Assembly: GCF_036785885.1 (NCBI RefSeq)
Contig: NC_092316.1
Span: forward strand, 49,671,001 to 49,735,000
Reading direction: 5' to 3'
DNA: 64,000 nucleotides
Source: Coffea arabica
Taxonomy: Eukaryota > Streptophyta > Magnoliopsida > Gentianales > Rubiaceae
The notes under the pieces were generated by a model, which worked only from the letters and a program-made list of their open reading frames with translations, did not search any database and was not told where the DNA came from. Positions 28,330-55,099 of this stretch are shown piece by piece. How positions within the stretch are numbered: position 1 is the stretch's first letter; the number at the start of each line of letters is the position of its first letter. A program made the position numbers and the translations under genes.

Positions 28330-28965
28330 TTAGCAAAAGCTAAGTTCAATAACCTTCACGAATTGTCTCAAATCAATTCGTTTATCTTCATTATTGCTGA
28401 ACCCAATAATCATCCTTTGGCATTCCAATTCTGAAAATTCTGTGTAACCTAACGCGCACAAAGTTTTGTCCAAGTCTTCTGCATCTACGTAGCCATCTTT
28501 GTTAACATCAAACACGTCAAAAGCTTCCTTCACTTCTTCTAGACTAGGCTCAATTTCTTCAAACAAAGTTGAAATTTCACCTAAGCCTAATCTTCCTCGA
28601 AGCTCATTTGCACTCGAGTCCCAAGAAATTCCTAGATTTTCCATCACTGTTTCAATATCTCCCTTGATCAATCCCTCGTTTTCTACATCTTCATTGATGC
28701 ATGGTTTCAAGAATGAGGCTACGCCGGCCTCATCCACATTTCTCCTCTTACCGGCAAAGCTACTCCAGCAGCCCTCAAATGTACTAATGAGGGATTGAGA
28801 ATATGATTGAAACAAGAAGCGAAAACATAAACACAAATGTTGAAGTCTAGCAATCCAAATGAGGATTTTGCATGTCAAAGTGAAAATCACAATTGACAGT
28901 GGATTTTCATCCTTGGTGACCATTGAGATGAATTCCAGTGTTGAAATTGAGTTGATCGTTTCCAT
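28330..28965 (-). CDS. CML-type EF-hand calcium sensor with N-terminal hydrophobic segment
   Basis: Single-exon gene for a 211-residue protein resembling the plant CML45/CML46 group. Residues about 22-39 (PLSIVIFTLTCKILIWIA) are hydrophobic and could anchor the protein in a membrane. Residues 140-152 (PSLEEVKEAFDVF) lead into EF-hand loop D153-V-N155-K-D157-G-Y-V-D161-A-E-D164, which has good calcium ligands except Asp instead of Glu at position 12. The second loop, S190-N-N-E-D-K-R-I-D-L-R-Q201, lacks the first Asp, the central Gly and the final Glu, so it probably binds calcium poorly. Such proteins relay calcium signals in stress responses. The start is the first Met of the frame and precedes the hydrophobic segment. 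The family is clear, the exact orthologue is not. Confidence 0.88.
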   Translation of the reverse strand: METINSISTLEFISMVTKDENPLSIVIFTLTCKILIWIARLQHLCLCFRFLFQSYSQSLISTFEGCWSSFAGKRRNVDEAGVASFLKPCINEDVENEGLIKGDIETVMENLGISWDSSANELRGRLGLGEISTLFEEIEPSLEEVKEAFDVFDVNKDGYVDAEDLDKTLCALGYTEFSELECQRMIIGFSNNEDKRIDLRQFVKVIELSFC

Positions 28966-29335
28966 GACAAATTTTTTTTTTATTTTTTTGTGGGAGAAAT
29001 CAGGCTAAAAAAAAAAAGTAGAATAAGGGAATAGATGTCTTTTATTTGCTTGTGGGATGTTGCGAACGGATAAAAGTTCCACAATTGTTAGGTTTTCTCG
29101 AACAGGTGCCATAGAACATCTTGAATATATAGAAGTGAAATTACCAAAGTCTTGGTGAAATGGCAATCAAGGAAAGTGCAACGAAAATGTAACAAAGTTT
29201 CCAAACAGTATTTGACAATGACCTTCATGTTCTGATGCCTCTGGAGTAACGTGTAAGAGTCGTCAAGGGAACTTCGTAGCACTTAACCTTGCAATGTCAA
29301 GCATCCAATCATGGCTCTTATTGCTTTATTAAAAC
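28966..29335. other. Upstream region of the EF-hand gene
   Basis: About 370 bp before a MITE begins. It has A/T runs just above the start codon. No definite promoter element identified. Confidence 0.3.
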
Positions 29336-32115: not shown

Positions 32116-32694
32116 GATTAAACTAGATTAGATTATAGGAATTCTATTGTTGCGACAAAAAAAAAATTCAGATAAGGATGTAACTTTTTTCTTTGGTTAG
32201 GTTAAAACTTCGTTTCCAGGAAAATAAGTTGTACAAGAATCATTGGCAGAGAAATGCTTGATAGAATTGAAACCTATATGATTAAATCTGAATTGAACTT
32301 TGGGCAGGTTCAGGTATAGCAGTAGCTAGTGGTACAGGTGGCTTCAAATTAGACGGTCATTTTTCTTTCTTTCTTTTTTTTTTTTTTTTGAGATTCAGAC
32401 AAGACTTGAAATGTAAACTACCTTATCTTACGTTCCACATCTGCCAATTGCAAATTTTCGTTCAAGTTGAGAAAAGTACATAAAGTAAGAGCTTTTTAAT
32501 TAGATTTACAATTTTCTCAAGATTTAGAATTTATAAGATTTTGAAGTAGAGAAATTTCTCGATGCGAATCTTTTACCTATTTTATTGTCCTCCTAGAGAT
32601 GAGGTAACAAGACATGTTATTTACATTAATTGCCTCGGGAAAACTTCTTGTAAAATGTCTTCAATTGATTGAAACTGGAAAATCATCCATTTGA
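32116..32694. other. Intergenic, nothing recognised
   Basis: No gene supported. A long T run lies at about 32,370-32,389. Confidence 0.3.
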
Positions 32695-33319
32695 AATGTG
32701 TGTTTTTTTGGATATTTGTCAAAAAACATATATAGTGTAACTTATCGTAGAATCAGAATAAAACTTTTGTGTGCTTAGAGTTTGCAAAAATTAAAAACTT
32801 TACTTTTTTTTTTCCGTTTTCTTTTCATTTTTTTTCCTTTCTCTCCTCCGTTCTCCTTCCTCTCCTACATCCCTACACCAGATTCGCTCTTCCTCCCTCT
32901 TGACTACCAACCGCCGCCTTCCACCAGCAGCGGTGGCAGCCACCCATCTCTCTCTCTCCCTCTTTTTTTCCCCCTTCTCTCTCCATTCCTCCTATGCTCT
33001 TTTCCTCCCTCCTTCCCCTCTCTTTCCTCGCTCCAGCCTCCTCCTCTCCTCTCCTCTCTCCTCCTCCTCCTCCCCCTTCATCGATTTCCTCAAGGGAGGA
33101 GAAGAGGGAAGGGGCTGATGAAGGGGAAGAAGGGTGTGGCCAGTGGCGGAGCTAGGAATTAACTTTGGGGGGGGGCGAGTCTATAACAATGAAAGTAAAA
33201 TATATTTACAAAAAAAATATAATGTGAACATATATACCACAAGATTAGAAACAACCTTATATAGAATGAAAATTACTTATACGCTTCACATATACAAAAA
33301 TATCATCATATTTACAAAT

Positions 33320-35791
33320 CTATTTGACTGTGTGGGACATATGAAATTGTGCACGACGACTTTTAATTTTATCAAAGTCATCAATGATTGAATTTACATC
33401 AAAAGTTCTAGTAATTTCTTTCTCAATATACATTATCATAGAGTTGGCAAGAAAGTCTTCCTCCATCCTAGAACGCAAACAAGTCTTGATGATTTTCATA
33501 GCAGAAAATGCACGCTCTGTTGTAGCTGTTGAAACAGGAAGAGTCAAAATAAGACGAATCAATCTATCAATAAGAGTATAGCACATTGACTTTCTTGTCT
33601 TCGCTAACACTTGGCACAACTCCTGAAGTGATGACAAATTTTGAAGCTGAGAATTACAGGAAAACTCAATCTGGAAAAGCTCTAATTGAGTTCTTAAGTG
33701 TAACTTCTCTTGATCTGTGAAGTCAGCTGAATAAAACTTGTCTGCAAGTTGACAAATTTGTTCAATATTGAAAGCCTGAAAATTATCTTTGGGGTGCAAT
33801 GCTGAACTAAGAATAAGCAACTCTATTACATCTTCCTTAAACCTATTCTTCATTTCAAGTATTTGAGAATCAACCGTTGCCAAAAACACATCAATCCTGT
33901 AGTGATGCTCCATGGTAATTGGATCATTTTGTTTTCGAATTCTTCCTCGACCTGCTTTATAAATGACATTCATACCGGGCATCTCTATATTTCGTGCATC
34001 ACAAAATGTCTTTACATTGGTGAACAATTCATTCCATCCATTATCTCTGTAACTTTGAAGTCGATCCTTTGTTACTGAAACCAATTTAAGGGCATTCAAA
34101 ATATCTTGAGATTTGCATTGTAAAGCTTGAGAAAGTACTTGTGCAAATCCTAAAATGTCCCTCATCATATGCATAACAAGAACAAAATCAAAGGATGTCA
34201 TGAAATCATAAACTCTGTCAGCTTCACTTCTTTGAGTTGATGTATTTCCATAATTGATAACATCAATTAGGACAGAGCAAATGTCTTCATATTCTGTGAA
34301 TAAGCTACAGATAGAACTAAAATGAGACCCCCATCTTGTAGTCCCTGGCCGTTTTAAGGTACCCATCTGATTCTGACCCCTACCAGTCTCAAGTTCATCA
34401 ATAGCAATCAATTCAGCAATTCTAGCAGCTCTAGCAACTCTAAGTTGGTCCACCCGTTTGCAAGAAGATGAAACTAAATTTATGAGAAGAGATAAGTTTG
34501 TAAAGAATTGTTCCACAGGAATTACCTCTTGAGATGTTGCTACCAATGTTAATTGCAGTCGATGAGCAAAACAGTGAATATAATATGCATAAGGGCACTC
34601 CTGAATAAATAATGCTTGCAGTCCATTCCATTCTCCACGCATGTTACTAGCTCCATCATATCCTTGGCCACGAATGTTTTGCACACTCAGATTATGGCGA
34701 GAAAGGACATCACATATCTCCTTCTTCAAAGTCAAGGAATTGGTTTCGTGCACATGAACAATGTCAAAAAATCTCTCTCGAATATAGCCTTGCTTGTCCA
34801 CAAATCTAAGAACAATAGCCATTTGCTCTCTTTTTGATCTATCTTGAGCCTCATCAACAAGTATAGAAAATTTTGAATCACTAATCTCCTCTCGAATATG
34901 CTTTTGTATCTTGATCGACCAAATGGACAATATCTCCTTTTGGATCGTAGGAGAAGTATAAGATGCATTTCGAGGAGCATTATCAAGAACCACAGCAGCC
35001 ACTTTTTCATTATAAGAAGACACATGCTTGATCAACTCAATAAAATTACCTCGATTGTTAGAATCTAAACTTTCATCATGACCCCTAAAAGCCACCGCTT
35101 GAAATGCACACCATTTTGCAGCATCTATGGAAACTTGAAGTTGCAACCGATTTTTTGCACCCTGCTCAGAATTTTGCTTCTCAATAATTTTGTCAAGATG
35201 TTGCAATGAGTTTCCCAAATCATGATAGCATTGCATTTCCACTTTGTGTGATGAGTTAGGATCTTTTCCAATGTGATTTAAAAATGCACAATTTTTTCCA
35301 TCATTTACTTTCTTCCATGATCTAAATCCACTAGTTGTGAAGGCCATTGATCCAAAACGGTCCGTTGGCTTGGAAAAAAGTGAGCAAGGAAGACAAAAGG
35401 CAGCATTCTTTGTTGGAGAAAATTCCAACCAATCTGGAAACAATTTATACCAAGAGAAAAGGAAACGTCGGCCCTTCTTGTCAACAACCATTGATTCAAT
35501 CGGAAGCTCAGGTTGGTATGGCCCAAACTTAATATATGCTCTCCGTACCTCATCCCTTTGATGCTCTAGATATTCCCAAATGGATTTTCTCTTTCCAGGA
35601 TCACGTTCTATGGATGAAATATCAAACTCTAATGATTCAGCTCTACAAAATTTCTTTGTTTGATGCTTAGGAGAAGAATCACGAAGAGGATAAGGAATTT
35701 CACCACTTCCACTTGGTTCTAGACGTCTTTTCTTGAAAAAAGAATCAATTGTCCTGTTGGCCATTACCACTATATTTGCAACAAACAACAA
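33320..35791 (-). CDS. hAT-family transposase (TTF zinc finger / DUF4371 / hAT dimerisation)
   Basis: 823 codons without interruption, related to the plant 'TTF-type zinc finger protein with HAT dimerisation domain' and zinc-finger MYM-type 1-like families. The likely start is the second Met, at MANRTIDSFFKKRR (residue 10), where homologues begin. In order: a TTF-type zinc finger (residues about 90-180, with CLPCSLF and the W/F-rich surroundings); a DUF4371/RNase H-like catalytic region (about 200-450, including LVDEAQDRSKREQM and YDGASNMRGEWNG); and the C-terminal hAT dimerisation segment (about 735-785, LPVSTATTERAFSAMKIIK). It would act in the nucleus, cutting and pasting its own element. 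Host-domesticated relatives exist, but here TIRs and a target duplication show it is a transposon gene. Confidence 0.93.
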   Translation of the reverse strand: MLFVANIVVMANRTIDSFFKKRRLEPSGSGEIPYPLRDSSPKHQTKKFCRAESLEFDISSIERDPGKRKSIWEYLEHQRDEVRRAYIKFGPYQPELPIESMVVDKKGRRFLFSWYKLFPDWLEFSPTKNAAFCLPCSLFSKPTDRFGSMAFTTSGFRSWKKVNDGKNCAFLNHIGKDPNSSHKVEMQCYHDLGNSLQHLDKIIEKQNSEQGAKNRLQLQVSIDAAKWCAFQAVAFRGHDESLDSNNRGNFIELIKHVSSYNEKVAAVVLDNAPRNASYTSPTIQKEILSIWSIKIQKHIREEISDSKFSILVDEAQDRSKREQMAIVLRFVDKQGYIRERFFDIVHVHETNSLTLKKEICDVLSRHNLSVQNIRGQGYDGASNMRGEWNGLQALFIQECPYAYYIHCFAHRLQLTLVATSQEVIPVEQFFTNLSLLINLVSSSCKRVDQLRVARAARIAELIAIDELETGRGQNQMGTLKRPGTTRWGSHFSSICSLFTEYEDICSVLIDVINYGNTSTQRSEADRVYDFMTSFDFVLVMHMMRDILGFAQVLSQALQCKSQDILNALKLVSVTKDRLQSYRDNGWNELFTNVKTFCDARNIEMPGMNVIYKAGRGRIRKQNDPITMEHHYRIDVFLATVDSQILEMKNRFKEDVIELLILSSALHPKDNFQAFNIEQICQLADKFYSADFTDQEKLHLRTQLELFQIEFSCNSQLQNLSSLQELCQVLAKTRKSMCYTLIDRLIRLILTLPVSTATTERAFSAMKIIKTCLRSRMEEDFLANSMIMYIEKEITRTFDVNSIIDDFDKIKSRRAQFHMSHTVK

Positions 35792-37140
35792 CCTGCAATC
35801 GAAATAAAATTGATTGAGAAATGCTGATTATGGCCTATAGAGATGGAATAAAAGCAGCAAGAACATTTGCAACCTAAGTAGACATAAGTGACATGCACAA
35901 AGTATTATTCAATAATAAAATGCAAACAAATGATAAAAGATCTCCATTAGAGCAGAACAAGTTCTCATTTCAAACATATCTCAAGGAAGTTTTCATAGCT
36001 TGTTATTAAATCGGCTGAACTTGAACAACTAACACCTACTTGAACTCATCAACTACTGTAATCCGAAAAATAATCAATAACTATCCATGCCAGTAAAAGT
36101 ATCCATGCCAGGCTCATGAATGCAATTTATACGTTCCAGAAAATTAATTTCTCAGTGAAACTTGAAAGCAACTCAAGTACCACTGGTTTTTCTTAAGCTA
36201 CCATGTTTTTTTACAAACATGAGCCCTTTGTCAAAGTTGTCCAAGTCACATCACTTATTATTTTTTTTCCCTAATAAATGATTTCCACTTCCAATTTACT
36301 TCATGGTGATCATTTGTTGTGCGGCTCCAAGAAAGGTTTCAGACACACGAAAAATGGCAGATGGTTCCAACATTAAATGTGCAAAATAGACTACTTAAAC
36401 TCATCAAGGCTACACCAATGGGTCATAAGTAGACAAGACTCCATTTCCCGCCAAAGGAAACTCAAGCTCAGCTCTGCAGCTGCAAAACGTAACAACTTTT
36501 TAATGTTGCATTAACTGAAACTCAATTTATAGTTCCTACCAAACACACACAATTCACAAAGGTGGGAAAAAAAATAAATTCAGTAAAATGACAAGCAGAA
36601 AACTAAAACTCAATGCGACAAGTTATTTCCCCAATAAAACTCAATGCTACAAGTACGAAAAATAATACAAGTCCTTCTCGATCAATTCATCAAACAACTA
36701 GCGGGCGAACTTTTTTACACCCACATTTTACTAAATAAATTTGTACGTAAAAAAAAATTTTTTTTACACCCCTCCAATTGTTAAAAAAAAAATTACCTAG
36801 ACAGCTAGACCATGCAAAATGCAATGGTACAAATGTACAATCCTTAGCCAGCGGGGGAAGGTCTTCACAGGAGAAAGTTTCTTCAAGCCTTCACAGGAGA
36901 AAGTTCTTTGGGCCCAAGCCTTTGACGTTTCTATTTTCTACTTTGACGTTTCTACTTAGGAAGAAGAATTGTGGCAGTCAATTGCCAAGTTAACTAATGG
37001 GCTACCTTTTCTTTGCACTTCATACGTTAAAAAAATAATTCTCTGTTATTTGGACTTTCAAATATTATTATTTGGGCCCTTGGGGGGCAAAGTGAATTTT
37101 TTGATTAATTTTTGGGGGGGAAAAACATAATAATAAATTT
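35792..37140. other. 5' leader region of the hAT transposase
   Basis: About 1.35 kb between the transposase start and the right subterminal repeats. No second open frame of note; the plus-strand frame at 36,778-36,993 is spurious. It probably holds the promoter and possibly a 5' UTR intron of the minus-strand transposase. Confidence 0.4.
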
Positions 37141-37500
37141 TTTTTTACTTAGAAAAATTTTTTTTTAACAATTGGAGGGGGGGCGGTTGCCCCCCCTGGC
37201 CCCCCCCTTCCCTCCGCCCCTGGGTGTGGCAGGGAAGAAGGAGAAGGGAAGAGGAGAGAGGAGAGAGAGGACGAGAGGAGAGGAGAGGAGGGGAAAGAGA
37301 GAGTGAGAAGGAAAAAAAAAGAAGAGAGGGACTACTGGCACTGGTGAGGGAGATGTTGGCGACTATAGCGGTGGGTTAAGGTGAGAGGTATTGGTAGAAG
37401 AGGAAGGTGATATTTGTTTTTGATATGTTGGCCTTTAGGGTGTGTATTTTAAAATTTTGGGATTTTTTGGAGTTATTTTAGACAAAATTGTTAAAAAAAC

Positions 37501-38079
37501 TTGTCTAATAAAAATCCCTTAAAAATCAGGCTTTCAAGCAAATAGAGTTGAAAGATGAACAAAATTAGTTGATTCTCAAATTGAACTCATTTTAGTAAGA
37601 GCTCGCTCAAACTTGGTTCGCCAACTAGTCAAATCAAGTTTGAACAGTATTCTATGTTCAATAATATGCAAACTTGATAAAATGTTCGTTCAAACTTAGT
37701 TCGATAAATAAACAAGCCAATTTTAAACTAATTTTGGACTCGTTAAAATAATCAAATAATCTTGAATATTAGGGTGTTCGACTTGAATATACTCGTATAC
37801 ACCGCTACGAGCAGACCCCATGTTAGTTACTAAACTAATAGTCCTCGCAAAATTTTTCTTTTTCAATTTCTGATGGCGGTAGATGCGTAAGATAAAACTA
37901 GTGGAATTGCAAGATAAAATAAAAATGGCAAATTGATGAACTTAAAAAACAAGCGATAATATCATTTTCTTTATTACTCTTTGACAAATCCAACAAGCAA
38001 TATAGCAAATAATTGCTATTATTACACCATTATTATATTCGTCTTTGTGTGTGATGGTATGTTGTTACCGGCCATTGTC
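37501..38079. other. Intergenic, degenerate TTCGAA-rich element
   Basis: Contains CTCGCTCAAACTTGGTTCG-type words (about 37,600-37,760) typical of an old DNA-element remnant, then sequence shared with the 3' flank of the peptide gene relic near 42,900 (TGGTAGATGCGT at about 42,910, GGTAGATGCGTAAG here). Confidence 0.4.
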
Positions 38080-38199
38080 TCAAGGAGGAGGATTGCAGCA
38101 GCAAAGTTTATGTGGGCTCTGGCCATGTACAAAAATGCATTGTCCACTAGTAAAGTTTTTCCCATTGGCAAGGTAATCTCAGATGAGATCCAAAAGGGT
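38080..38199 (-). pseudogene. Defensin-like peptide exon 2 relic (copy 0)
   Basis: On the minus strand an acceptor GCAG is followed by an exon that resembles the peptide exons at 41.2 and 43.2 kb. One frame reads DYLANGKNFTSGQCIF, then SPHKLCCCNPPP and a TGA stop at 38,082-38,080. The triple-Cys end and GxC motif are hallmarks of plant defensin-like (DEFL/LCR) peptides. The copy is broken: a TGA stop sits where copy 3 has a Gly codon, and the Cys codons of the C-x3-C pair are lost (TGC to TAC in one case). The signal-peptide exon expected just upstream is missing, although sequence typical of the family's upstream region (AAGATTTACTTAC) is at about 38,360. Confidence 0.65.
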
Positions 38200-40239
38200 C
38201 TGCGATAATCATTATGTAATTTGGATTTACTTTTTCAGACCCACCCAAAAGAATCTGGATTTGAGTTTGAATCAAACTAAATTAAATGAATGTGAATTTG
38301 AATCAAAGAGATCGAATCCAAACCCTATCCATTGACATGGTTAATTACAAGCTAACTAAGATTTACTTACAAAATATGTAACACGCACAACATACATAAT
38401 CCTGTGATCAAGAATTATAGTATGGTGTCTCAATCGTTCATTTTAGGACAAGGGTAAACAATTCAGGATTTTTTTTTTTATAATTTGGTAGACGGGTTTC
38501 TTCACGGAAAATATTCATTTGATCATGGCTCCCAACTTCCAAGATACGAGCAACAATTACATACTTGAAGAGTGGCCATATTTGTACCTTTTCTTAATCT
38601 TTAAGGTCAACTAATTAGGCTAATCACAAGAAAGACAAACAATTCTAGTAGCCTGTTGAATTGAAAAGATGTTGTTTCGTGTAGTTTAAGGACAAAATGA
38701 AGTATAAAGGACCTATGTCAGCTTTGGTACTGTAAACTTATGAGTAGTATGCTTGAATATACTGCCTAACTCATACTAGTTGCTTAATAAAATGTAATGA
38801 ACTTAGCAAAAATGTACTTTTAGTTCTCAAAGTTTGAGCTTTAGACAAATTAATTTTTAATGCATCAGACAGAATAAATATGGCCTTCAGAATACTCAAT
38901 TTTGATCAAATTAGTCTCCAATTTTTTTTTATCTTAGCAAATGTAGTCCTTAAAATTCGTTGAAATTAAATTTTTAATTTTTAAAACTTGGGGCATGGAT
39001 TGCAGTAGTTGGTCAATTGACTTCTTAGTTTCAACTGCCTGAAGACAACTAATTAATGGAACTTTTTCAATTGCAAATGTTGAAGGCATTAATTCGTTCA
39101 TGTTACTTTTCTAATTAAAAAAAAAAACTAATCAGACACAATTTTGTTCTATGATTTCTCCTAGTGCTGAACAATTAATCTTCAAATTAATATTAGGGAT
39201 AACAAATTTAAAAAGTCTTGAACGTAATTTGATTGTTTCATACTCAACTGATGGCCATTAAACCTTAATCCATGTATATGTCCATGATGTAGCATTTTCA
39301 AGTTGTCAGCAATTGGCTTCCATAAGGGGAAAAAAAATCACTCTATTAGTTTCTTGATAATACCAATATACAAAGTCACAAAAATTAGTAGAGTTGAATG
39401 TGACTATTTACTTGAACGACCAAATAAACCTGTAAGTGTACCTCAGACCATGAAAAATGGGAACTTTTCTTACAAAATTTTGTTATTTGTCCCCAGTCAG
39501 CAAAACTACAACTTCAAGGGACCAAATTCATTTTTGATGAAATATTGCCCAAATTATGAAGTGCTTTTAGCTATCAATTTTTCACTCGTAGTCATTAACT
39601 TCTGTTAAGCAAAGTCAGATTTGGCACAAAATTCAAGTATAATTCTTCGTAAATATTACAACCAAGGTAGAACAAGTTATTCATAAATAAATAGGTCAGA
39701 GTTCATGCCAGTTTTAGATGGATTAAGAAAAAAGGCAGAACAAGTTATTTACATATTATTTTTATTATTTTAGTAAATATGCAATAATTAATTACAACAA
39801 TTTTTTTTTTAATCTCATCTCGTTATGATTCTAATAAATTAGATTTACAGATTAAGCAACACACAAAAACATGTCCTCATACCCCAACACATTAATTGGT
39901 GTTTGGAACTTGGACCCATATTTGCAAAAATGATCAGAGAATCTTTTTGGATGATCATAGTACTTCCATTTTCAGTTCAAAGAACCCTCATATAATGTCC
40001 AATGAATTTCCAGCATAAAATAAAGGAGAAAATTAATCTTTGGCAGATCAAAATTAGTACCTTTGTTATTTAATTATGACAAAACAATAAAGCCGTCCAT
40101 AGTAATTGATGAGGAAATTGAACCTTTGAAATAGAAATTCTTTGTTGTTTAATACTAATTAAGGGTGCCAATTAATTTGTTGCCCAAATTTTAGTTTTTC
40201 ATTTATTCCTTTTATTCCATGCATAGATAATTCAATAAA

Positions 40240-40314
40240 TATCAGTAGTACATGATGATGCCGTAGGGAGGCAGTAAAAGCAAGAAAAATAAGAAGGTAT
40301 TTGTACAGCCCCAT
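40240..40314 (-). pseudogene. Defensin-like signal-peptide exon relic (copy 1)
   Basis: Reads MGLYKYLLIFLAFTA from an ATG at 40,314, nearly the same as MGLHKCLLIFLAFTA in the gene at 41.9 kb. After that a one-base deletion relative to the other copy changes the frame (SLRHHH...). No cysteine exon follows within 1.5 kb. The family's upstream word TAAGATTTACTTACC is at about 40,471. It is therefore an orphaned first exon; it could only be used if spliced over 2 kb to the 38.2 kb relic. Confidence 0.65.
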
Positions 40315-40714
40315 AGATTTTCTATTCTTGTGAATCTAATTGTCGGAAAGAGAATATTGAGGGACTAATCATGAAAAATTAAGAACTTCGATTATTAACA
40401 TATTTAAAATTAAACACAACGATGCATAACTACACAATTTGGCTTGTGGACCCTTACCATTACACGCTCTCTAAGATTTACTTACCCAATATAAAAAAAG
40501 CGCAATAATTATGAAATTATTTTGACAAAAAGGACAAATTTGATTACACAGTCTTATGTTCGATCCAGTAAATCTTACGTTTATGACATTCAAGTACAAG
40601 CTTAGCAAAGTTCATACTCTGCAGATAATCTTTGAAGGAGTCAAAAGCTGGAGGGGCAATTCTATTTTTGATTTCCAATGCTTGACAAAAGTGACATAAA
40701 TGAAAGTAGAAGCT

Positions 40715-40975
40715 GAATGAAGTTGAGGCCGATGAGGTCTTGATTTAATAGTCGAGATTCAAATAGCAGAAAATAGAAATTTTGTATTCAAATCTCACTG
40801 TATGAGGGTTTCATATCCCACTCTTCATGGTTTACAAGTTGTAAGGCTGTGCAGTTATGATAATAGTTGTAACTCTCTCCATTATTGAATTAGTTGTTGT
40901 TAATTGTATTACACCCACTTTTATGGATTTGTCACAATCTTGTTAAAAAAAAAAAAGAAAGAAAGAAAGAAAACT
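40715..40975 (+). mobile_element. Possible SINE (weak)
   Basis: GGCCGATGAGGTCTTGATTT and GTATTCAAATCTCAC resemble degenerate tRNA box A and box B, and the segment ends in a (A)n(GAAA)n tail at about 40,945-40,972. No target duplication was found, so the call is tentative. Confidence 0.3.
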
Positions 40976-41193
40976 TGAGAATTACAAAACTAAAATAGAC
41001 AAAAGGTGAAGCTTAACAGATCAAAAATCCAAATTTTTTTTTTTCAAGTTTGCCAATGAACATAAAATGCAACGAATCCTTGGTCTTATTACACCACATT
41101 CCTAAACTGTTATTTCATATTCATCTTTGTGACTGATCATATGACCACAGTCTCATCTTTGTATATTGTGAGTGGTCGTACGGCCATTGTCTC

Positions 41194-41994
41194 TCAAGAA
41201 GAAGGATCGCAGCAGCAAACAATCGGGGTGATCTGGACAGATACAAGCACCGCCATTGTAGTTAAGCCCTTTCTTAAAGCAATCTTGAAAGCACTGAGGG
41301 TCTCCATAAGTTGCAGAACAGGGTTGATAGCAGGGTCTGCCAGTTAAAGCAATACAAAAATGCTTAGCAGTGGCTTGGATAAATAGTCATGCATGCATAA
41401 ATTGGTAGAGTTCTTTAAAAGATAAAAAAAAGGAACTATTTTTTTATAAAAAAAAAATTAAGACGTTTTTCAATCACTTTTATTTTATTTTATTTTATAG
41501 ACATTTTTCTTAATAAAGTGGTAACAGTAAAAGTTCTTTTAAAACACCTAAATGCACAATGATGCAAACAGACGTGGGATCTAATAAGATGTTTGCAAAA
41601 GCTCATAAAAGTTCTACCAAAATTACGATATAAAAGTTGAAAGTTTGGTTTTTTGGTTTCATTTTCTTTGACTGAAATTTAAGGTCTAGGGGATTTGAAC
41701 TCCTAACCTTTAATTGCTGAGTTTAATTTTTTTTTTAAATCATACAAAATTAAGTTCTCGCACAGAAGTACGATATAAAAGTTGAAAGTTTTATAAATAA
41801 TTAAATATGATTTTTAACATGTTACAGAATTAAAGCAAATAAAATTAGAAAATTTGAATACAATTAATTGTATCTCTTACTCGCAAGAAAATCCAATAAT
41901 TACCTATGGCATGTGAGAATGCCATAGTGAGAGCAGTGAAAGCAAGAAAAATTAGAAGACATTTGTGCAACCCCATCAGATCTTCTTTTATCAT
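41194..41994 (-). CDS. Defensin-like secreted peptide gene (copy 2), frame-damaged
   Basis: Exon 1 (41,994-41,904) encodes a signal peptide, MGLHKCLLIFLAFTALTMAF, and ends at donor AG|GTAATT in phase 1. Exon 2 starts after GGCAG at 41,336. Spliced in phase 1, the frame stays open to TGA at 41,196-41,194 but reads almost no cysteines until a final CCCDPSS. The other frame of exon 2 contains the family pattern: C-x3-C-x8-C-x3-C-x11-C-x-C, with YGDPQC, FQDC and NGGACIC. So one base seems lost near the exon start and one gained just before the CCC codons; the two shifts cancel. An intact relative would be secreted, with disulfides of the cysteine-stabilised type, acting in defence or cell signalling. 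The current gene is probably a pseudogene or encodes an altered product. An alternative start is 41,976. Confidence 0.6.
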
Positions 41995-43180
41995 GTAATT
42001 CTTGTTGGTAGGAGAATATGTATATACTGTAGAGGGAGTTATTGGAGCCACAAGATATTCCAAAATGAGTGCAAAGTAGCTCCTTAAATACTGCAGTCAT
42101 GCAAGACTGGTAAAATAAACACTAAGATATGTAATTAAATAATTTGGCTCCTAAATCTTAATCATTAATACAGGCTCAGTAAGATTTACTTACCAAATAC
42201 AAAAATTGGTGAATGATTGATTATGCAGTTATTATGGCAGAAACAACAAGATTAATCCTGCTCAATAAAAATTATACACATGTTGTATGCACAACCTGTT
42301 TTTTTTCCTCCTAAAATACAGACAGGTTTTGTTAACACTACAATTTACTCTAAGCTATTTTACTTGAAATTAGATGGTTTTTTCAGTCTTAGCTGATTAG
42401 GTGCGTGTGCTGGTCACTAACAATTGACTCTTGCAATTGTAGATTTAATTTCGTTCAAGTTGCGAACAATATCCAGAATAAGAGCTTTTCATAATACAAA
42501 TCAAAATTTGTCAACCTTTTGCACTGATAAGATTATGCAGTAGCATACACACACAGACACTTGTACATATACATAGGTGTGCATGTATATTATATTATAT
42601 CAAGACAGATTCTAAACCTTAAAATAAAAAAAAAATAAAGATAGTTTGAGATTCAAACCACTGACCTCATGATCAACTGACTAATGCCTTACTAATTAAT
42701 TAAGGAAATCTCTATGATAAAACCTTTAGAGATTTAAGTTTCCTCCAAGAGATGAGGTGGCGAGACAAGACGTGCTTGGCTATATGAATTGGGAAATTTG
42801 TTGCTCGAAATGTTTTTAATAATTCAAATTGGAAATATTAGAGGCTCATTTAGTTGCAAAAAGATTAGTCTCTGCAAATATTAATTCTTAATTCTGGCAG
42901 TGGACCTAGTGGTAGATGCGTTGGATAAAAGTATTACTTGAATGAACTCGACAACTAGAAAGTAAAATGAAAAACAAACATTTCAACAGAACAAAGGAGA
43001 AATAATATTGCTTTTGTTTGCCAACTCATGGAAAAATTCGATAACAAGAAATATAGCAGCAGATATTCCTTATGGGGGTTATTAAGCTATATTCCTCTGA
43101 ATAAAGGATAACGTTCCTCTACCAATATTATACTTGTCTTTGATCATATGACGTTGCTAGCCACTGCATAGCAGCAAAGT

Positions 43181-43646
43181 TTATCGCGGCTCTGACCTTT
43201 TACAAAAATATCCACTAGTAAAATTTTTCCCTTTGGCAAAGCAATCTCCGTTGCATTCGGAGTAGGGGTGCAAACGAATCGAGCTGCTCAATTCAAGCTC
43301 GAGCTAGTCGAGTCAAAGTCGAGCTCAAAATATTAAGTTCGTCGGGCTCGCGAGCTCGAATATATATATTTTTTTATTTTAATAGTAAAATTACATAAAT
43401 ATCCTTAATATTTTATTATTTATTAAGAAAAATATTATTTTATTTATTTTTTAAAAAATAAAATAATTATTTTTATTTTTTTGGCTCGAGTTTCAAAATT
43501 GTCAGCTCGATCTCGAGTTCGAGTTCGATAAAATTAAGTCAAAACTTGGCTCGATTAGGCCAAATTTCGACTCATTTGTAGCCCTAATTCGGAGTCCCCA
43601 TAAGATAGTGAACATTTTCCATAACAGAAAGGATGAGCGGCATATT
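43181..43646 (-). pseudogene. Defensin-like peptide exon 2 (copy 3) split by a hAT MITE
   Basis: A strong acceptor (T-rich tract, then GGCAG) precedes the exon at 43,646. In phase 1 it reads EYAAHPFCYGKCSLSYGDSE, then the MITE interrupts at 43,586. Beyond the MITE (from 43,254) the frame resumes with CNGDCFAKGKNFTSG and ends at TAA 43,183-43,181. Cysteines follow C-x3-C-x8-C-x3-C, as in copy 2. Compared with copy 0, about five bases are missing near the end, which brings the early stop and removes the triple-Cys tail. No signal exon was found upstream: only about 100 bp separate this exon from the copia LTR at 43,751. The gene is certainly non-functional as it stands. Confidence 0.75.
43263..43586. 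mobile_element. hAT MITE, 324 bp, with perfect 8-bp target duplication
   Basis: Starts TAGGGGTGCAAACGA and ends TCATTTGTAGCCCTA, imperfect inverted repeats. The 8-bp ATTCGGAG is present on both sides (43,255-43,262 and 43,587-43,594). Subterminal regions are packed with GAGCTCGA/TCGAGTC words, as in the elements at 49,422 and 54,704. No coding capacity; presumably mobilised by a hAT transposase. It landed inside the peptide exon described above. Confidence 0.92.
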
Positions 43647-43750
43647 CTGCCAATGACACAAAGCAAAGGAAAAAAAAAATCCTATTAGCATGCAGTTGAT
43701 TGGTTAATATTCTTACATACATAAAATTTCTTAAAACTTTTACCAAGAAG

Positions 43751-44383
43751 TGTTGGAGAAATGGGGATCACAAGTGTATGGAACCTACTACAAAACTATT
43801 ACAAGAATAATATCAAGACTAAACTAATTTTTTTTGGGAATTCAAGAGAGTTTCCAAGGCGTGTGATCACTCTTCTTAAGGTATGATTTGCCCCCACTAT
43901 CTTGCTAATCGGGTTGAAATGGTAAATTATCTCTAGGATACAATGGAAACAAAAACTAGTCTAAAGCAAGTTTAAACTCAGTTTTCACAAGAAAGAGATG
44001 CAAGAAGTTGGTTATGCGAATCTAAAATAGCCTAAGCACAAGTTACACAAGAGAGGTTTAGACTACCTCTATGAATAGGCAATCCAAGAGCAAGAGTACA
44101 TGAATTTCACTTAGTGTCCATTTATGAATATAGTACACCAAATACATGAACTAATGAACCTGAGAATATACATCAATGTATCTTCACTTAATGTTCATTC
44201 ATGAATTTAGTACTTCAAGTATATGAATGGAGTAGTTCCATAAATGAACAAATGAACTTGAAAAGATACATTAATGTACCAATGAATCTTGTAGGAAATT
44301 CATGAATCAAACTTTTAGACATGATAAGAAAAATCATGTCACAAGTCATGATCAATTTTTATACTACAAACTAATTTCCAACA
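43751..44383 (-). repeat. 3' LTR of the copia element, with polypurine tract
   Basis: In element orientation it begins TGTTGGAAATTAG and ends TTTCTCCAACA, with the standard TG...CA ends and a short TGTTG/CAACA inverted repeat. Directly upstream (44,384-44,395) the minus strand reads TAAGTGGGGGAA, a typical polypurine tract for plus-strand priming. Length 633 bp. The host-side target duplication cannot be tested because the other end of the element is lost. Confidence 0.9.
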
Positions 44384-44495
44384 TTCCCCCACTTAGTTTG
44401 TAGTATGAAATGCTAAACCAACACTTATGATATCATGCATAAAGAAAAGTAACTTTCGTTTTAAACTTTTCCTTAATGCAAATAATTCACAAGTT

Positions 44496-45259
44496 CTAAT
44501 CAAATCAAGGTGGTTAGATAGCTTAAACCAAGATTTGAAATTAGAATAGAAATATCACACACATGAACTAATCAACTTGCATCCAACAATCACATTTCAT
44601 CTTTAACACTATTACCGGCCATGTGCTTATCTTAGTTCATGATCATGTATAAAAGATTACCCTAAACTTTTACTAGAAGCGGCACCACTTCTATAATCAT
44701 ATAGGTAAATCATATTTGTAACTTTATCAAATAAAGTACTAAGAAATATGCTTATTAAGAGAATATTTCTCAACCTGCTCAATTAAGAGTAACATGATGT
44801 ACTACCACTTGGAATGGTATACACAAAAATTTGCAGCACTCACAATCACTTATTTTTAACCTTTAAACCTTTCAAACTAATCAAATCAAGGTGGCTAGAT
44901 TGCTTAACCAAGATTTGAAATTAAAATAGAAATATCACACACATGAACTAATCAACTTGCATCCAATAATCACATTTCATCTTTAACACTATTACCGGCC
45001 ATGTGCTCATCTTAGTTCATGATCATGTATAAAAGATTACCCTAAACTTTTACTAGAAGCGACACCACTTCTATAATCATATAGGTAAACCATATTTGTA
45101 ACTTTATCAAATAAAGTACTAAGAAATATGTTTATTAAAAGAATATTTCTCAACCTGCTCAATTAAGAGTAACATGATGTACTACCACTTGGAATGGTAT
45201 ACACAAAAATTTGCAGCACTCACAATCACTTATTTTTAACCTTTAAACCTTTCAAACTA
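44496..45259. repeat. Tandem duplication, 2 x ~381 bp, inside the copia element
   Basis: 44,496-44,876 is repeated at 44,877-45,259 with only a handful of differences (for example GGTTAGATAGCTTAAACC against GGCTAGATTGCTTAACC). It lies between RNase H and the 3' LTR, in the noncoding 3' region. The high identity suggests it arose late, perhaps by template switching during reverse transcription or by unequal crossing-over. Confidence 0.95.
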
Positions 45260-45302
45260 GGGGTAGTACTAAAAGAAGGTTGGATTACCATTACTAGTGA
45301 TT

Positions 45303-45905
45303 CTAGACAAAGGGTTTTAATCCCATTCGCGACGTTGTCGAATTCACTAAGTCTCTCGCAAGAGTTTTAGTCAACGAATCTGCTAAATTATTATAAGTTC
45401 TTACAAACACAATTGTGACAACGCCATCAATCAACATTTGTCTAATATAGGTATGTCTCAGACTTATATGTTTAGGTTTACTATTGTACACTTTGTTCAA
45501 TACTCTAGACATAGTAGTCTCACTATCGCAAAACAAAGCAATTGCAGGCATAAGACGAGGCCACAGATTTATATCAAATAATAAATCTCTAAGCCACTCC
45601 ACTTCTCTGCATGTAGAAGCTAAAGCTATGAATTCAACTTCCATGGTAGAATGAGTAATCATAGTTTGTTTCTTAGAAACCTAATAAACAGCTCCACCAC
45701 CTAGCATAAAGATCCATCCACTAGTAGGATTTTGATCACCAATACTAGTTATCGAACTAGCACTTGTATTCCTCTCAAGAACACTTGAAAAATTATTGTA
45801 GAATAGACCCAAATCTTTGGTTCTTTTAAGATAACCAAGGATTTTAGTCACTGCTTTCCAATGATCTTTACTAGGATTCTTCGTATACCTAACTAATCTA
45901 CACAC
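45303..45905 (-). pseudogene. Copia RNase H region, frame-broken
   Basis: Two frames carry the C-terminal part of the copia polyprotein: 45,905-45,681 (RYTKNPSKDHWKAVTKILGY) and 45,662-45,303 (EVEFIALASTCREVEWLRDL, CDSETTMS, KHISLRHTYIRQ, NNLADSLTKTL). These are the expected RNase H motifs, including the final ADxxTK. At least one stop separates the two pieces. Confidence 0.88.
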
Positions 45906-45908
45906 TGA

Positions 45909-46876
45909 TTAAGAAATATCTGGTCTTGTGCAACTCATTGCATACATTAAACTTCCAATTATACTTGCATATTCTAACTGAATAATTGGATTACCAGCAT
46001 TCTCATATAATTTGAAATTAGGATCAAAAGGAGTAATAGCCTCTTTCACATTCAAATGTTGATACTTTTTCAAAATTTTATCAACATAATGCGATTGTGA
46101 AAGTGCAAATCCCCCACCATGCCTCTTAACTTTAATCCCTAAGATAGAAACCACCTTTCCAAGATCTTTCATTTTGAAATTGTCAGAAAAATACTTCTTA
46201 GTATCTACTACTGCTTGATCGTTAGTATCAATAATTAGCATGTCGTCTACATAGAGACAAATGATCACTCCATACTTGTCACTGAATTTAGAATAAATGC
46301 ACTTGTCAGTATTATTTGACCTAAATCCATGTGAAAATAAAACAATTTCAAATTTTTTATACCATTGCTTAGGTGTTTGTTTCAATCTATATAATGATTT
46401 TACAAGTTTACACACCTTATTCTCATTTTTAGGAAGTACAAAGCCCTCCAGTTGTTCTACATACACCTCTTTATCTAAATTACTATTTAGAAAGGCTGTC
46501 TTGACATCCATTTGATATACAAAAAGGCTATAGATTGAAATTAAAGCCAAAAGTACTCTAATGGATGCAATTTTAGCAACTGGTGCATATGTGTCGAAAT
46601 AGTCAACACCTTCCTTTTATCTAAAACATTTGTCCACCAACCTAACTTTATAAGTTAGTATGGATCCATCCATGGAATATTTCTTTCAAAATACCCACTT
46701 ATAATGAATAGGTTTAGAATCATGTGGTCAATCAACTAGGACCCACGTACCATTAGATAACAATGAATCCATTTCATCATTTACCACCTTTTTCCAAAAT
46801 ATTGAATCTCTATATTTCATAACTTCACTAAATGTTTTAGAATCATCCTCTACACTAAATAAAATTGGAGTTTTAT
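45909..46876 (-). pseudogene. Copia reverse transcriptase, stop-ridden at the N-terminal side
   Basis: The longest open part (46,550-45,909, 213 codons) contains YQMDVKTAFLNSNLDKEVYV, CKLVKSLYRLKQTPKQWY and the catalytic CLYVDDMLI (YVDD) motif, ending at a stop after AMSCTRPDIS. Upstream, 46,876-46,551 continues the RT domain but contains several in-frame stops. The catalytic core is preserved, yet the gene cannot make a full enzyme. Confidence 0.9.
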
Positions 46877-47870
46877 TTAGTCGAGAATCTCTATTGCCTT
46901 CAACAGGAAAGACAATAGCTTGTGAAGAGATAAAATCGGAGAGTGGACTCTTTTCTTTTCTTTGTCTCTGACTCCTCCTTGATTCAAAAGGAGTGTCAAT
47001 TTCCTTCTTTTTTTTGTACCATTAGAAAGATCAGCACTATTAGAAGAACTTGGTTCATTGTGTGGATCATTTTCAACTCTTGAATTATTGAGAAACTTAT
47101 TCTTAAAAAATTCAACATCTCTTGATTCTACAATCACATTAGAATCAAGATCAAGTAGCCTATAGACTTTAGAATTTTTAGAATAGCCAACGAATACATT
47201 TTTAAGTTCTCTAGGTCCCAATTTTATTCTTTAATTTTCCAAAACTCTATAATAAGCTATACATTTCCAAACTTTTAGATAATTCAAGTTTGGTTTTCTT
47301 CCCTTCCACAACTCATATGGAAACACTTTAGTCTTCAAGAAGGGAATACAATTATGCACATGACATGCAGTCAATAAAGCCTCGCCCCACAAATTCTTTG
47401 GCAGACCAAAACTTAAAATCATGGCATTTACCATATGTTCGAAAATTCTATTTTTTCTTTTAGCCAAACCATTTTTTTGTGAAGTATAAGGAGCACTTGT
47501 TTGGTGTACACACCATTATTTTCATAAAAATTTGAGAATTCGGTAGAAAAATATTCACCACCTCTATCACTTCTCAATATTTTGATTTTTTTATTTAATT
47601 GATTTTCAACAAAGAGACTTATATGTCTCAAACATATAAAAGATTTCATCTTTTATTTTCATCAAATATACATGCACACATAGAGTAATCATCAATGAAA
47701 GTGATGAAATATCTATTACCATCTCTTGTTAAAATTCTATTCAACTCACAAACATCCGAATGTACAAGATCAAGCAATTGTGAGTTTTTTTCAACTTTAG
47801 GAAAAGGCAACTGTTATCTTGGTTTGAACACATGTTTCACACTTCTTATTCACATTGTCACTAAATGAAA
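46877..47870 (-). pseudogene. Copia integrase region, fragmented
   Basis: Three frames carry integrase pieces: 47,649-47,428 (KILRSDRGGEYFSTEF, part of the D,D35E core), 47,467-47,231 (NRIFEHMVNAMILSFGLPKN, PYELWKGRKPNLNYLKVWKC) and 47,221-46,877 (KNVFVGYSKNSKVYRLLDLD, the C-terminal region). Frameshifts and stops lie between them. The first catalytic Asp region just upstream of 47,649 is damaged. Confidence 0.88.
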
Positions 47871-49247
47871 TTAGACCATTTTTAGACATTGTTGTAGCAT
47901 TTTGTGATTAACATGTCCTAATCTATCATACCACGAAAAGTAAGCAAAATTAACAAAACAAAGAGAAACATCATCATTCTTATTGATACTTAATTTAAAC
48001 ATGTCATTACAAGAGTAGATTTTTCCAACAAATACACCATTCTTGAACAATATCACTTTGTTGGCCTCTAGTACAGCTTTCAACCCTTTCTTGTTAAGAA
48101 TATCAGTAGAAACAAGATTTTTTATAATATCCGGAACATGAAGTACATTAGTGAGGACTAATTTCTTGCCGGAAGTGAATTGAATATTCACACAACCTTT
48201 GCCATGAACTTTAGCCCTTACACCATTTGCCATCACTACTTCATGTTCTTCAAGAATTTCATAATTCTTGAATTGATTCTTGTTATTGTACACATGAATG
48301 GCTACATCAGAATCATTCCACCAATCCTTGGAAGAATTAGGTGTGGTCATGTTCACTTCAGTCAATGTACCAAGTAACATCATAGCAACGATTTCTGAAA
48401 TTTCGTCAACAAGATTTGTGGTTGAAGCACCACTAGTCTTTTGTTTCTTATCATACCGGCATTCAAATTTGTAATGGCCTTTTTTGCTATAATTATAGCA
48501 ATTTCTATTCTTCTTCTTATTGTCATTAGAATTAGTATTATTAGGTTTCTTCCTTTTGAAATTGAAAGACTTTCTTTCATTCACAAAATTCACCTTAAAT
48601 TTATTTTCCACTTTCACTTTAGATTCAACATTCACATCTTTCTTTTGAAGATTTCTAGCATTTTCTTCAATCCTTAGATGTTTCAAAACACCATTTAAAG
48701 TCAAAATTTCAGAAATATGGAGCAATTCCTTTTGATAGTTATTCCAACTAAGAGGCAACTTGGAAAAAATAGCCCTCACTTGAAATGCTTCTGAAATTTC
48801 AATACTTAAATCTTTGAGTTTTGAAACAATCACTTGCAAATTGTGAATTTGATCAAGAAGTGGGGAATTGTCTATAAATTTGAACTCAAAGCATTTTTTG
48901 ATAAGAAACTTATCTGAGCTTTGCTTTTGATTGACATGTTGACACTCAAGGGTAGCCCAAATCTCCTTTGGTGACTTGACGGTTGTGAATAAATCATAGA
49001 AACTATCTAACAAACTATGGAGGATGTGACCTTGACGCACTACTTCATCTTCTTCATGTTTTTTCCTTTGTCTATTCAAAACCTCTGAATCGTCATCCTT
49101 TGAAGGAGAAATTTCTGGAAGATTTGGGTTCAACACATATGCCACCTTCAAGACTGTTAAGAAGAAGATCATCTTATCCTTCCACCTATTGAAATTGGTT
49201 CTGATTCCATCTAAGTGGTCCAAGTTGACAAAGTCTTGATTCATCAC
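47871..49247 (-). CDS. Copia gag-protease-preintegrase frame, 458 codons
   Basis: Open from MMNQDFVNLDHLDGIRTNF to the gag-pre-integrase motif WYDRLGHVNHKML. The N-terminal half is the UBN2-type gag (RWKDKMIFFL, LLHISEILTLNGVLKHLRIE). A zinc knuckle at about residues 249-262 reads CYNYSKKGHYKFEC: the second Cys of the CX2CX4HX4C motif is Tyr. The protease active site is DSDV instead of the usual DSGA (WWNDSDVAIHV). Both changes suggest that gag and protease lost function although the frame stayed open. Confidence 0.85.
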   Translation of the reverse strand: MMNQDFVNLDHLDGIRTNFNRWKDKMIFFLTVLKVAYVLNPNLPEISPSKDDDSEVLNRQRKKHEEDEVVRQGHILHSLLDSFYDLFTTVKSPKEIWATLECQHVNQKQSSDKFLIKKCFEFKFIDNSPLLDQIHNLQVIVSKLKDLSIEISEAFQVRAIFSKLPLSWNNYQKELLHISEILTLNGVLKHLRIEENARNLQKKDVNVESKVKVENKFKVNFVNERKSFNFKRKKPNNTNSNDNKKKNRNCYNYSKKGHYKFECRYDKKQKTSGASTTNLVDEISEIVAMMLLGTLTEVNMTTPNSSKDWWNDSDVAIHVYNNKNQFKNYEILEEHEVVMANGVRAKVHGKGCVNIQFTSGKKLVLTNVLHVPDIIKNLVSTDILNKKGLKAVLEANKVILFKNGVFVGKIYSCNDMFKLSINKNDDVSLCFVNFAYFSWYDRLGHVNHKMLQQCLKMV

Positions 49248-49739
49248 CTTGATAACAGATTCTTAAGTAGACTCCATACCAATCTCAAATCAGACCTTAA
49301 GATAGTTGAAGAAATGGGGATTACAAGTGTATAGAACCTACTACAAAACTATTACAAGAATAATATTAAGACTAAACTAAATTTTTTTGAAAATTCAAAA
49401 GAGCTTTAAAGGCATGTGCTTTAGGGATGCTGTTGAGTCGAGTCGAGTCGAGCTCGAGTAGTACCATATTCGAGCTCGAGCTCGAAGGTTATGAGCACTA
49501 CTCGAGCTCAAGATCGAGCTCGAACAAGCCTCAAACTTCAGACTCGAACTCGACTCGATGTAGTTAAAAACAACTCAAGCTCAAACTCATATAAGATTCA
49601 AGCTCAAGGACTCGAGCTAAACTCGTAAAATGAGCTCGAAAACCTTTGTTTTCTATACCAAAATTCAGCAAAAATTGAGTGCAAAAAATCTGTGCTTTCC
49701 TTCAATAAAATAGCAACTCATATTAAAACATGCATTTTG

Positions 49740-50594: not shown

Positions 50595-52704
50595 TCACTT
50601 TCTTTGAGATCCTATGAAGCTTTCTACACCAGTTCCTGCACACAACAACACCTGAACTGTATCTGAATGAAGGGAAGCACGATAACTATCAATAACTCGA
50701 GTTTTGGCATTAAATGTGGCCTCAGATGCCACTATAGTTACAGGAATAGCCAAGATGTCAGCCGCTATTTTGGGACAATATTGGATATGCAACCCTATTG
50801 CTTTTCCACCACTCTAAACAATCATAGGCATTTGGGTTAAAACTCGTCTTTAGGCGAGCCTTTTCTCAATAATCCACCAATTCAGATCTCTGTGGCTCGG
50901 TAGTTTCCATTTCGTCACAGTACTCATCAAAGTCAACCCATCTAGAAGAAGATGTTGCATTTTTTTGTGGCCTTTTTGAAGCACATGAGTGGACTACATT
51001 TTCTTTTTCAATTGCATTCAAATTTGCATACTCATCATAAAGCTCAAATAAAACTTTCTTCACACTGGAAATATGTTCTTGTGCCTCAAAAGATGGAAAC
51101 ATTTGAGGGAAGGCGAATTCAACAACTCTCGTTTTCTGCCTTGGATCTAGAATGGTAGCAATAGCCATTAACAAATTGCATTCACCCCAATATTTGTCGA
51201 ACTTGACCTTTATCTTTCCAACCATAGCTCGGATGAAGTCATTTTCACCATTCACTCAAGAATCTAAGACTTTCTTAATTTTCACAACCTCTTGAAGGAA
51301 CAAATTGCTCGTAGGATATTCACTCCCGGATATTACATGCATGGCTGCCCAAACTTTCTCTAACACAGAGCACACTTTTTCTGTTTTTTCTCAATCCTCA
51401 TAAGCTGGACAAGAATCATAGAATGGCTCTCTATCTTGAAAATGAGGAAAAATATCTTTGAACTTCATAGCACAACTTAGCATTTCGAAGGTGGCATTCC
51501 ATCTTGTTCGACAATCATAAAGCAATTTCTTCCCCAATATTTGAAGTTGTTGTGCAATCTCAGCGAACAACAATAATCTAGTCTCTGAGCAATTGACAAA
51601 ATCGACACTGTTTCTAATTTTGTTTACAATATCCACAATCTCAGAAATGCTGATGTGAACAATAAGGTTCAAGATATGCGCATAGCATCGAACATGAAAC
51701 AACTTGCCACCACCTAATAGCTTTTTCGATCTACTAAAATCATCCCGCAAAACTCTAATAGCCACATCATTGGCCGAAGCATTGTCAACTGAAATTGTGT
51801 GTATCTTCTGCTTGATACCCCAATCCTTCATACACTTGAAGAGTGAAGCAGCAATCTCAACCTCTCGTCTAGGAGGTGGCATGTGAACAAAGTTGAGCAC
51901 TCTCTTTTGTAGCTTCCAATCCGAGTCAATCTAATTGCCAGTAATAACCATATATTCGATCTTTTGATTTTTGAATTTTCAAAGATCGGTTGTGAGGCTC
52001 ACCTTTTTCACATTTCTCAACTTGTTCTTCAGCTTCTTTTTCTCAAGTTCATAGACTGCTACACAATCATTTTTTGCTACTCCTCTGGTGATCTTCTGCC
52101 ACTCGGACATTCCACGCTTTAGAAAAATATTCAAACATTCTTCTTCCAGAATGGTAAAGGGATGTTCGTGCATCAAAATCCAATGTGCAGCTGCTTCTCT
52201 CATTTTCTCCATGTCAAATTTCTCGGTATGCAAAGGTGGTACAGTAGGAAATGCGTTATTAGCCGGTTGAAAGTTCAATTTTGTTTGTTGTGCAGCTTGT
52301 CTTAAACTTGCTTTTCTAGATGGACATGAGTTCCAGTGCCACCACATGCTAGATGTTTGCTTTGATTTACCCCTTGATAGCTTTTTATTGCAGTAACGGC
52401 AAATGGCATAGTAATTGCCATTTTCTTCAAATTCGTTGAAGTCCTCCCAAGCTTCAGAAGTTTTATTTCGTTTTGGAATATGGAATTCATCATCTTCATC
52501 TAATTTATCCTTTTCTCCTTCTGTATTGTTATTGTCAGCAACCACAACTTGTTGTCCTTCTTGTATATTACCTAAAAAAGTACTTTGTGTAATCGGATCT
52601 TTCTTCCCTTTTCCTTTTCGTTTTTTGTTTTGTTTCTCTTTTCTGCTCTTAAAGAGGAAGGATAACAGGTCTCTACTTACCTTTTCAGTAACACGATTCC
52701 TCAA
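50595..52704 (-). pseudogene. hAT transposase, RICESLEEPER/BED type, broken
   Basis: Reading the minus strand: 52,704-51,979 encodes a basic N-terminus and a BED zinc finger (SEAWEDFNEF, CRYCNKKLSRGKSK, MWWHWNSC). 51,900-51,391 encodes the catalytic region (ISVDNASANDVAIRVL, KLFHVRCYAHILNLIV, RTRWNATFEML). 51,255-50,866 encodes the conserved middle (ILDPRQKTRVVEFAF). 50,792-50,595 encodes the hAT dimerisation end ([17 protein letters not shown]). In-frame stops separate the blocks, for example at about 51,976, 51,930, 51,391 and 51,255. It cannot yield a full transposase. Confidence 0.9.
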
Positions 52705-52720
52705 CTTCTAAGTTATAGGT

Positions 52721-54703: not shown

Positions 54704-55099
54704 TAGGGGTGTTCACGAATTGAGCCGCTCACGATCGGATACGAGCTCGACTCGGTCAATATCGAGCTCGACTCGCTCGAGTTAATTAAGTCGAACTCGA
54801 GCTGCTCGCGAGCTCAATTATATATATATTTTTTATTTTTTATTTTAATAATAACATTACACATATATTCCTAATATTTTATTATTTGTTAAAAAATTAT
54901 TATTTTATTTATTTTTAAAAATAAATACTTATTTTTTATTTTTTAAAAATACATTTATTATTATTATTATTTTTTTAAACTCGAGCTCGATATTTTGAGC
55001 TCGTTAAGCTCGAGCTCGAATTCAAGTTTTACAAAATTAACTGGAGGCTCGACTTGATTAGGCCAAAACTCGGCTCGACTAGGCTCGTTTGTACCCCTA
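54704..55099. mobile_element. hAT MITE, 396 bp, with perfect 8-bp target duplication
   Basis: Begins TAGGGGTGTTCACGAA and ends TCGTTTGTACCCCTA. CCCACCCC is present on both sides (54,696-54,703 and 55,100-55,107). Subterminal GAGCTCGA/TCGAGCTC repeats, and a central block of AT-rich sequence, match the MITE at 43,263-43,586. Noncoding. Confidence 0.92.

Follow-up and report, generated by a model that had tools for sequence, protein, structure and literature searches.

Precursors of plant defensin-like (DEFL) peptides carry a signal peptide, which leads to export, and a cysteine-stabilised alpha-beta (CS-alpha-beta) domain, which acts on microbes or on fertilisation receptors. For Arabidopsis, the available text of PMC3525529 gives 317 DEFL genes of all classes and describes the species-specific AtLURE1 cluster (CRP810_1) of Arabidopsis thaliana as a tandem defensin-like array that includes one pseudogene, five of its six listed genes carrying no pseudogene mark. 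The NCR genes of pea and Medicago, according to the available part of PMC9515463, have two exons (in pea, most of the genes), of which the first mostly encodes the signal peptide and the second the mature peptide. This two-exon layout is common to the plant DEFL and cysteine-rich peptide (CRP) genes (LCR, LURE, NCR) and to the family described here, which was encountered in a stretch of 64,000 nucleotides of the Coffea arabica genome (the window; C7:49671001-49735000, contig NC_092316.1). The minus strand of the window contains, at 38.0-43.7 kb, parts of four related two-exon genes (copies A, B, C and D); they very probably represent an ancient tandem array of four or more defensin-like genes which is now non-functional, and of which the intact form is found on C3 and C4.

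The relic cluster on C7 and its counterpart on C8

The minus strand was read over 37.5-44.5 kb, with translation of the relics in its three frames, and this region was aligned, on both strands, to itself and to the remainder of the window; the genome searched comprised 1,197,963,845 bases in 131 contigs. A preliminary description of the window had proposed a tandem cluster of four related minus-strand relics, with a signal-peptide exon at 40.3 and 41.95 kb and a cysteine exon at 38.1, 41.2 and 43.2-43.6 kb. Translation and DNA self-comparison bore this out: the signal-peptide-like exon is present in copies A and B, with 13 of 15 residues identical, and the cysteine exon in copies D, B and C, the last in two parts separated by an insert (Table 1). 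Copy B is the most complete of the four; its exon 2 is not in frame with exon 1 where the two would be joined, and the frame is broken again before the CCC end. Copy A is reduced to upstream DNA and exon 1, and no exon 2 was detected. For copy C, nothing resembling exon 1 rose above noise in the whole window or in C8 46.34-46.38 Mb. Copy D has lost the 5' part of exon 2, and its fourth cysteine is changed on C7 and retained on C8. The proposed triple-cysteine end is clean in copy D, lies in a different frame from the other cysteines in B, and is altered in C. The proposed phase-1 intron is corroborated at the sequence level, as a phase-1 GT donor follows exon 1 of copy B, exon 2 of copy C begins in the matching phase, and the genes on C3 and C4 have an intron of the same phase.

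The relatedness of the copies is also evident from their DNA: 40201-40544 (A) aligns with 41863-42256 (B) at 63% over 396 columns (blastn, E 1e-24), and the self-comparison also gave matches between C and D in exon 2 (80% over 89 columns, E 9e-15) and in some of the 3' flank (61% over 209 columns, E 3e-5), and between B and D (E 2e-7). As peptides, the first exons of A and B match at 28.1 bits, against a maximum of 20.4 bits among 50 random sequences; these control sequences were generated from the dinucleotide frequencies of the window and are not exact shuffles.

C7 and C8 share long collinear blocks, those of at least 1 kb being 86-95% identical with gaps counted; for comparison, the available text of PMC10805892 gives 22 chromosomes for a published Coffea arabica assembly, with collinear subgenome parts of 94.9% mean identity. 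In the interval C8:46.354-46.360 Mb the four relics recur in unchanged order, and the copia element again adjoins copy C; most of the decay therefore predates the split of C7 and C8. Common to both chromosomes are the copia element just upstream of exon 2 of copy C, the ruined donor and lack of a detectable exon 2 in copy A, the missing front of exon 2 in copy D, and a shortened start of exon 2 in copy B, which places its cysteines out of frame with exon 1. Confined to C7 are a hAT-like miniature inverted-repeat transposable element (MITE) in copy C, a short deletion before the CCC end of B and the changed fourth cysteine of D; on C8 alone, copy B has lost its start and stop codons and copy C is disturbed in another way. 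Through these shared and private lesions the coding structure is broken in four of four copies on C7 and in four of four on C8, the state of a pseudogene array. That each copy is damaged in its own way, as had been proposed, holds for the lesions private to C7; several others are common to C8 and hence old.

It is highly improbable that copy B is still a gene which uses an alternative donor and acceptor and encodes a longer peptide without the CCC end. By eye, a second GT after exon 1 and an AG situated some 26 bp before the usual acceptor would bring the cysteine frame, which is open over 77 codons, into phase; however, the genes on C3 and C4 use the phase-1 junction, at which neither homoeolog of B is in frame; in addition, the start and stop codons are missing from the C8 copy, and the CCC end on C7 is out of frame.

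Family assignment and the intact-looking genes on C3 and C4

A defensin-like nature of the cluster had been proposed, and the cysteine stretch of copy B (40 aa) agrees with it, matching the Pfam family PF24552 (Defensin, Defensin-like) with 35.9 bits (E 7.9e-9; 33.7 bits for a 39-aa version), above the curated cut-off of 27 bits that was used as the threshold of membership. The counterpart of B on C8 (33.1 bits) and the genes on C3 (43.4 bits) and C4 (45.4 bits) also exceed this cut-off, with similar scores in the genome-wide search. Relative to the family, copy B has two additional cysteines before its end. The piece of copy D matches the last part of the profile only and stays below the cut-off (17.6 bits, E 0.004); neither the two pieces of copy C nor copy A matched a Pfam family.

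PF24552 was found at no fewer than four places in the genome, on C4, on C3, and at copy B on C7 and its C8 counterpart, and the C4 peptide as query yielded at least the same four; these counts are lower bounds, and the fragments of C and D are not among the matches. Intact relatives elsewhere in the genome had been anticipated, and the genes on C3 and C4 answer to this: each has an unbroken reading of 87 aa, a first exon of 94 nt with a hydrophobic N-terminus that by eye resembles a signal peptide, and a phase-1 intron with GT-AG ends (95 bp on C3, 109 bp on C4). Their eight cysteines are arranged as C-x3-C-x8-C-x3-C-x10-C-x12-CCC, and the spacing of the first four is that of the relics. C3 and C4 align around the gene, and neither has lost any of the eight cysteines or either splice site. 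Between the two genes, 10 of 264 coding sites differ; the corresponding numbers are 14 of 196 for the upstream flank, 13 of 91 for the intron and 14 of 188 for the downstream flank. Coding sites differ less than flanks and intron together (41 of 475; Fisher p 0.015), with p 0.088 against the two flanks alone. From their sequences, the pair likely represents a live, fast-evolving gene under weak constraint; alternatively, function may have been lost in a way so far invisible in the sequence.

The C3 gene also has, about 250 bp before its start codon, a solo-long-terminal-repeat-like insertion (TG...CA, about 475-480 bp, flanked by a CATTA duplication) which is absent on C4, and which could alter the expression of one homoeolog.

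A single-sequence structure model of the exon-2 stretch of copy B is weak and gives two strands and one helix in the order strand-helix-strand, which reads as what a CS-alpha-beta fold lacking its last strand would give. No structural match to this weak model was found in the PDB; by sequence, no PDB entry matched copy B, and the best match of the C4 peptide had an E of only 0.2. The spacing C-x3-C-x8-C-x3-C is hairpinin-like, an alpha-hairpinin having no more than two C-x3-C pairs, carried by a pair of antiparallel helices, and the peptides might on this account be alpha-hairpinins rather than CS-alpha-beta peptides; with four further cysteines (eight in all) in the C3 and C4 genes, the match to PF24552 and the strand-helix-strand order of the weak B model, this assignment is very improbable and was rejected.

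It is likewise very unlikely that the dead cluster serves as a source of small or antisense RNA acting on the C3 and C4 genes. The coffee data offer nothing in its favour; its precedent lies in Arabidopsis, where transcripts of relic CRP genes and of pseudogenes can occur in flowers (available part of PMC3422182). The C4 gene, however, is just 56-60% identical to relics C and B over 72 aligned exon-2 sites, which would make for poor targeting.

Two results weigh against a decayed array with a functional remnant. Matches among the exon-2 peptides of different copies lie at 20.8-24.6 bits, and the best matches to random sequences at 20.0-26.2 bits, depending on the piece, so that only the second piece of C and, barely, the piece of D exceed their own controls. 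Further, the rates of nonsynonymous (dN) and synonymous (dS) change between C3 and C4 are about equal, which counts against constraint. The first of these results and the transposon-rich surroundings would suit a noncoding dispersed repeat that resembles exons by chance, a possibility raised in the preliminary description; this is scarcely credible and was rejected, because exon DNA was found only in the two homoeologous clusters (lower-bound counts over 1.2 Gb, own places included: at least four for exon 2 of D, at least six for upstream region plus exon 1 of B), and copy B matches a Pfam family above the cut-off and has intact-looking paralogues.

Upstream word, transposable elements and neighbouring genes

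A word repeated upstream of the genes had been noted at 38.36, 40.47 and 42.19 kb, and AAGATTTACTTAC indeed occurs three times in the window, in the positions given; the expectation at no more than one mismatch is 0.24 matches, and three were reached in 1 of 100 shuffles. The word lies 159 bp (A) and 205 bp (B) before the ATG and is retained on C8 at the counterparts of these two and of D; the upstream DNA of copy C has been replaced by the copia element. An exact 14-mer, GGTAAGTAAATCTT, is located 778 bp upstream of the C3 gene, or about 299 bp when the later TG...CA insertion is discounted, and GGTAAGTAAAGATT lies 283 bp upstream of the C4 gene, with only a 10-mer in common with A and B. As a control, 1,821 random 400-bp pieces were drawn from the window; 52 of them had an exact word of at least 14 in common with the upstream kilobase of the C3 gene, and such sharing is therefore not rare by itself. 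In a second sampling, the shared words of this length were simple AT or TATG repeats, the sole exception being AATCTTTTTCCCAAA, in pieces starting at 60.7-60.9 kb. GTAAGT is the consensus of 5' splice sites, and the word may therefore be the donor of a leader intron; a promoter element is the other candidate. Tentatively, the word (sense GGTAAGTAAATCTT) could be a conserved cis-element or leader-intron 5' splice site about 160-300 bp before the start codon, common to defensin-like paralogues whose promoters are otherwise hardly alignable; if so, though this is doubtful, it would serve as a marker for unannotated peptide genes of this class and point to a common regulator.

Table 1. Features of the relic cluster and of the elements adjoining it (positions in the window)
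Feature	Position	Strand	Remarks
Copy B exon 1, signal-peptide-like	41976-41905	-	peptide MGLHKCLLIFLAFTALTMAFSHAI; phase-1 donor GT next
Copy B exon 2, cysteine frame, PF24552 match	41335-41219	-	translation and profile
Copy A exon 1 relic	40314-40270	-	peptide MGLYKYLLIFLAFTA; splice donor lost
Copy C exon 2, 5' part	43647-43588	-	phase-1 acceptor immediately before
Copy C exon 2, 3' part	43261-43171	-	damaged; CC end altered
Copy D exon 2, 3' part	38178-38083	-	KLCCCNPPP, then stop
Upstream word, copy D	38358-38370	+	word search
Upstream word, copy A	40473-40485	+	word search
Upstream word, copy B	42181-42193	+	sense GGTAAGTAAATCTTA; the 14-mer recurs upstream of the C3 gene
hAT-like MITE in copy C exon 2	43263-43586		8-bp target duplication ATTCGGAG at 43255 and 43587
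Copia element immediately upstream of exon 2 of copy C	43752-49418	-	5' long terminal repeat truncated; common to C8

The MITE in copy C has inverted ends of the type TAGGG..., was assigned to the hAT class by resemblance, and is absent from this site on C8; a relative is found at 54704-55076 (67% over 374 columns). Within the copia element beside copy C, a 380-bp tandem duplication is present at 44496-45259 (97% matches). An open frame of 835 aa (33320-35827, minus strand) contains DUF4371 and hAT dimerisation domains. The C8 blocks corresponding to window positions 32166-33140 and 37259-40572 adjoin within 6 bases on C8, and about 4.1 kb are therefore present on C7 only; the element at 33320-35827 is perhaps a young autonomous transposon. 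Pieces of a further DNA transposon, hAT type by resemblance only, lie at 50866-52707 (minus strand), with a BED zinc finger at 51979-52707 and no Pfam family match at 51391-51930. Ordinary gene neighbours, all on the minus strand, are a sulfotransferase (5670-6695), an EF-hand protein (28330-29004) and a Dof zinc-finger protein (58849-60141).

Elsewhere in the genome, groups of Methyltransf_7 matches were seen at 0.68-0.81 Mb of C1/C2 and at 32.9-36.1 Mb of C17/C18; the methyltransferase matches fall mostly on neighbouring contig pairs up to C22, with none on C15 and C16, and among the first-exon matches listed three are on C2 and one is on C1. The exon on C1 aligns with 3,7-dimethylxanthine methyltransferase (DXMT, 2EFJ) over 121 residues, of which only the last differs, and the exons on C2 and C18 have 2EFJ and 2EG5 as best matches, less perfect than that of C1; by sequence, the exons checked (one each on C1, C2 and C18) thus appear closest to caffeine-pathway enzymes. 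We take both entries to derive from Coffea canephora. C1, and hence perhaps C7, may represent the canephora side.

Proposed course of decay and comparison with described systems

Each ancestral gene would have encoded a secreted peptide, with the signal peptide on exon 1 and a cysteine-stabilised domain on exon 2 (spacing C-x3-C-x8-C-x3-C-x10/11-C-...-CCC), and the array would have been built by duplication. Before the split of C7 and C8, a copia element would have settled beside C, copy A would have lost exon 2 and copy D the front of exon 2, and a frame-breaking shortening would have occurred at the start of exon 2 in B; after the split, the hAT-like MITE would have entered copy C and a second frame break arisen in B on C7, and B would have lost its start and stop codons on C8. 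The homoeologous copy thereby serves to date the lesions, shared ones being placed before the split and private ones after it. The homoeologous single genes on C3 and C4 most likely encode a secreted CS-alpha-beta peptide of about 55-60 residues, putatively from a spliced transcript, with a role in defence or in pollen-pistil or other cell signalling suggested by the family to which it belongs. They are short enough for gene callers to overlook, and are candidates for studies of coffee defence or fertilisation. A small family of secreted peptides would thus have shrunk, a tandem array giving way to a single intact-looking locus on each homoeolog, in keeping with the birth-and-death cluster envisaged in the preliminary description: the array is decayed on both homoeologs, and intact-looking paralogues stand on C3 and C4.

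In the available portions of the literature, no work devoted to coffee defensin-like genes and no mention of PF24552 was found, an absence that is thereby not proven. The cluster resembles that of AtLURE1 in being a tandem defensin-like array with pseudogene content; it differs in that all four copies of the coffee array are broken, in a state common to both homoeologs. Compared with DEFL and CRP genes in general, the whole array is broken on both homoeologs, and at least one intact-looking locus with PF24552 is present per homoeolog, set against the 317 DEFL genes of Arabidopsis. The coffee cluster is a new instance of the plant DEFL gene picture and not a new kind of system, i.e. it reflects ordinary gene birth and death.

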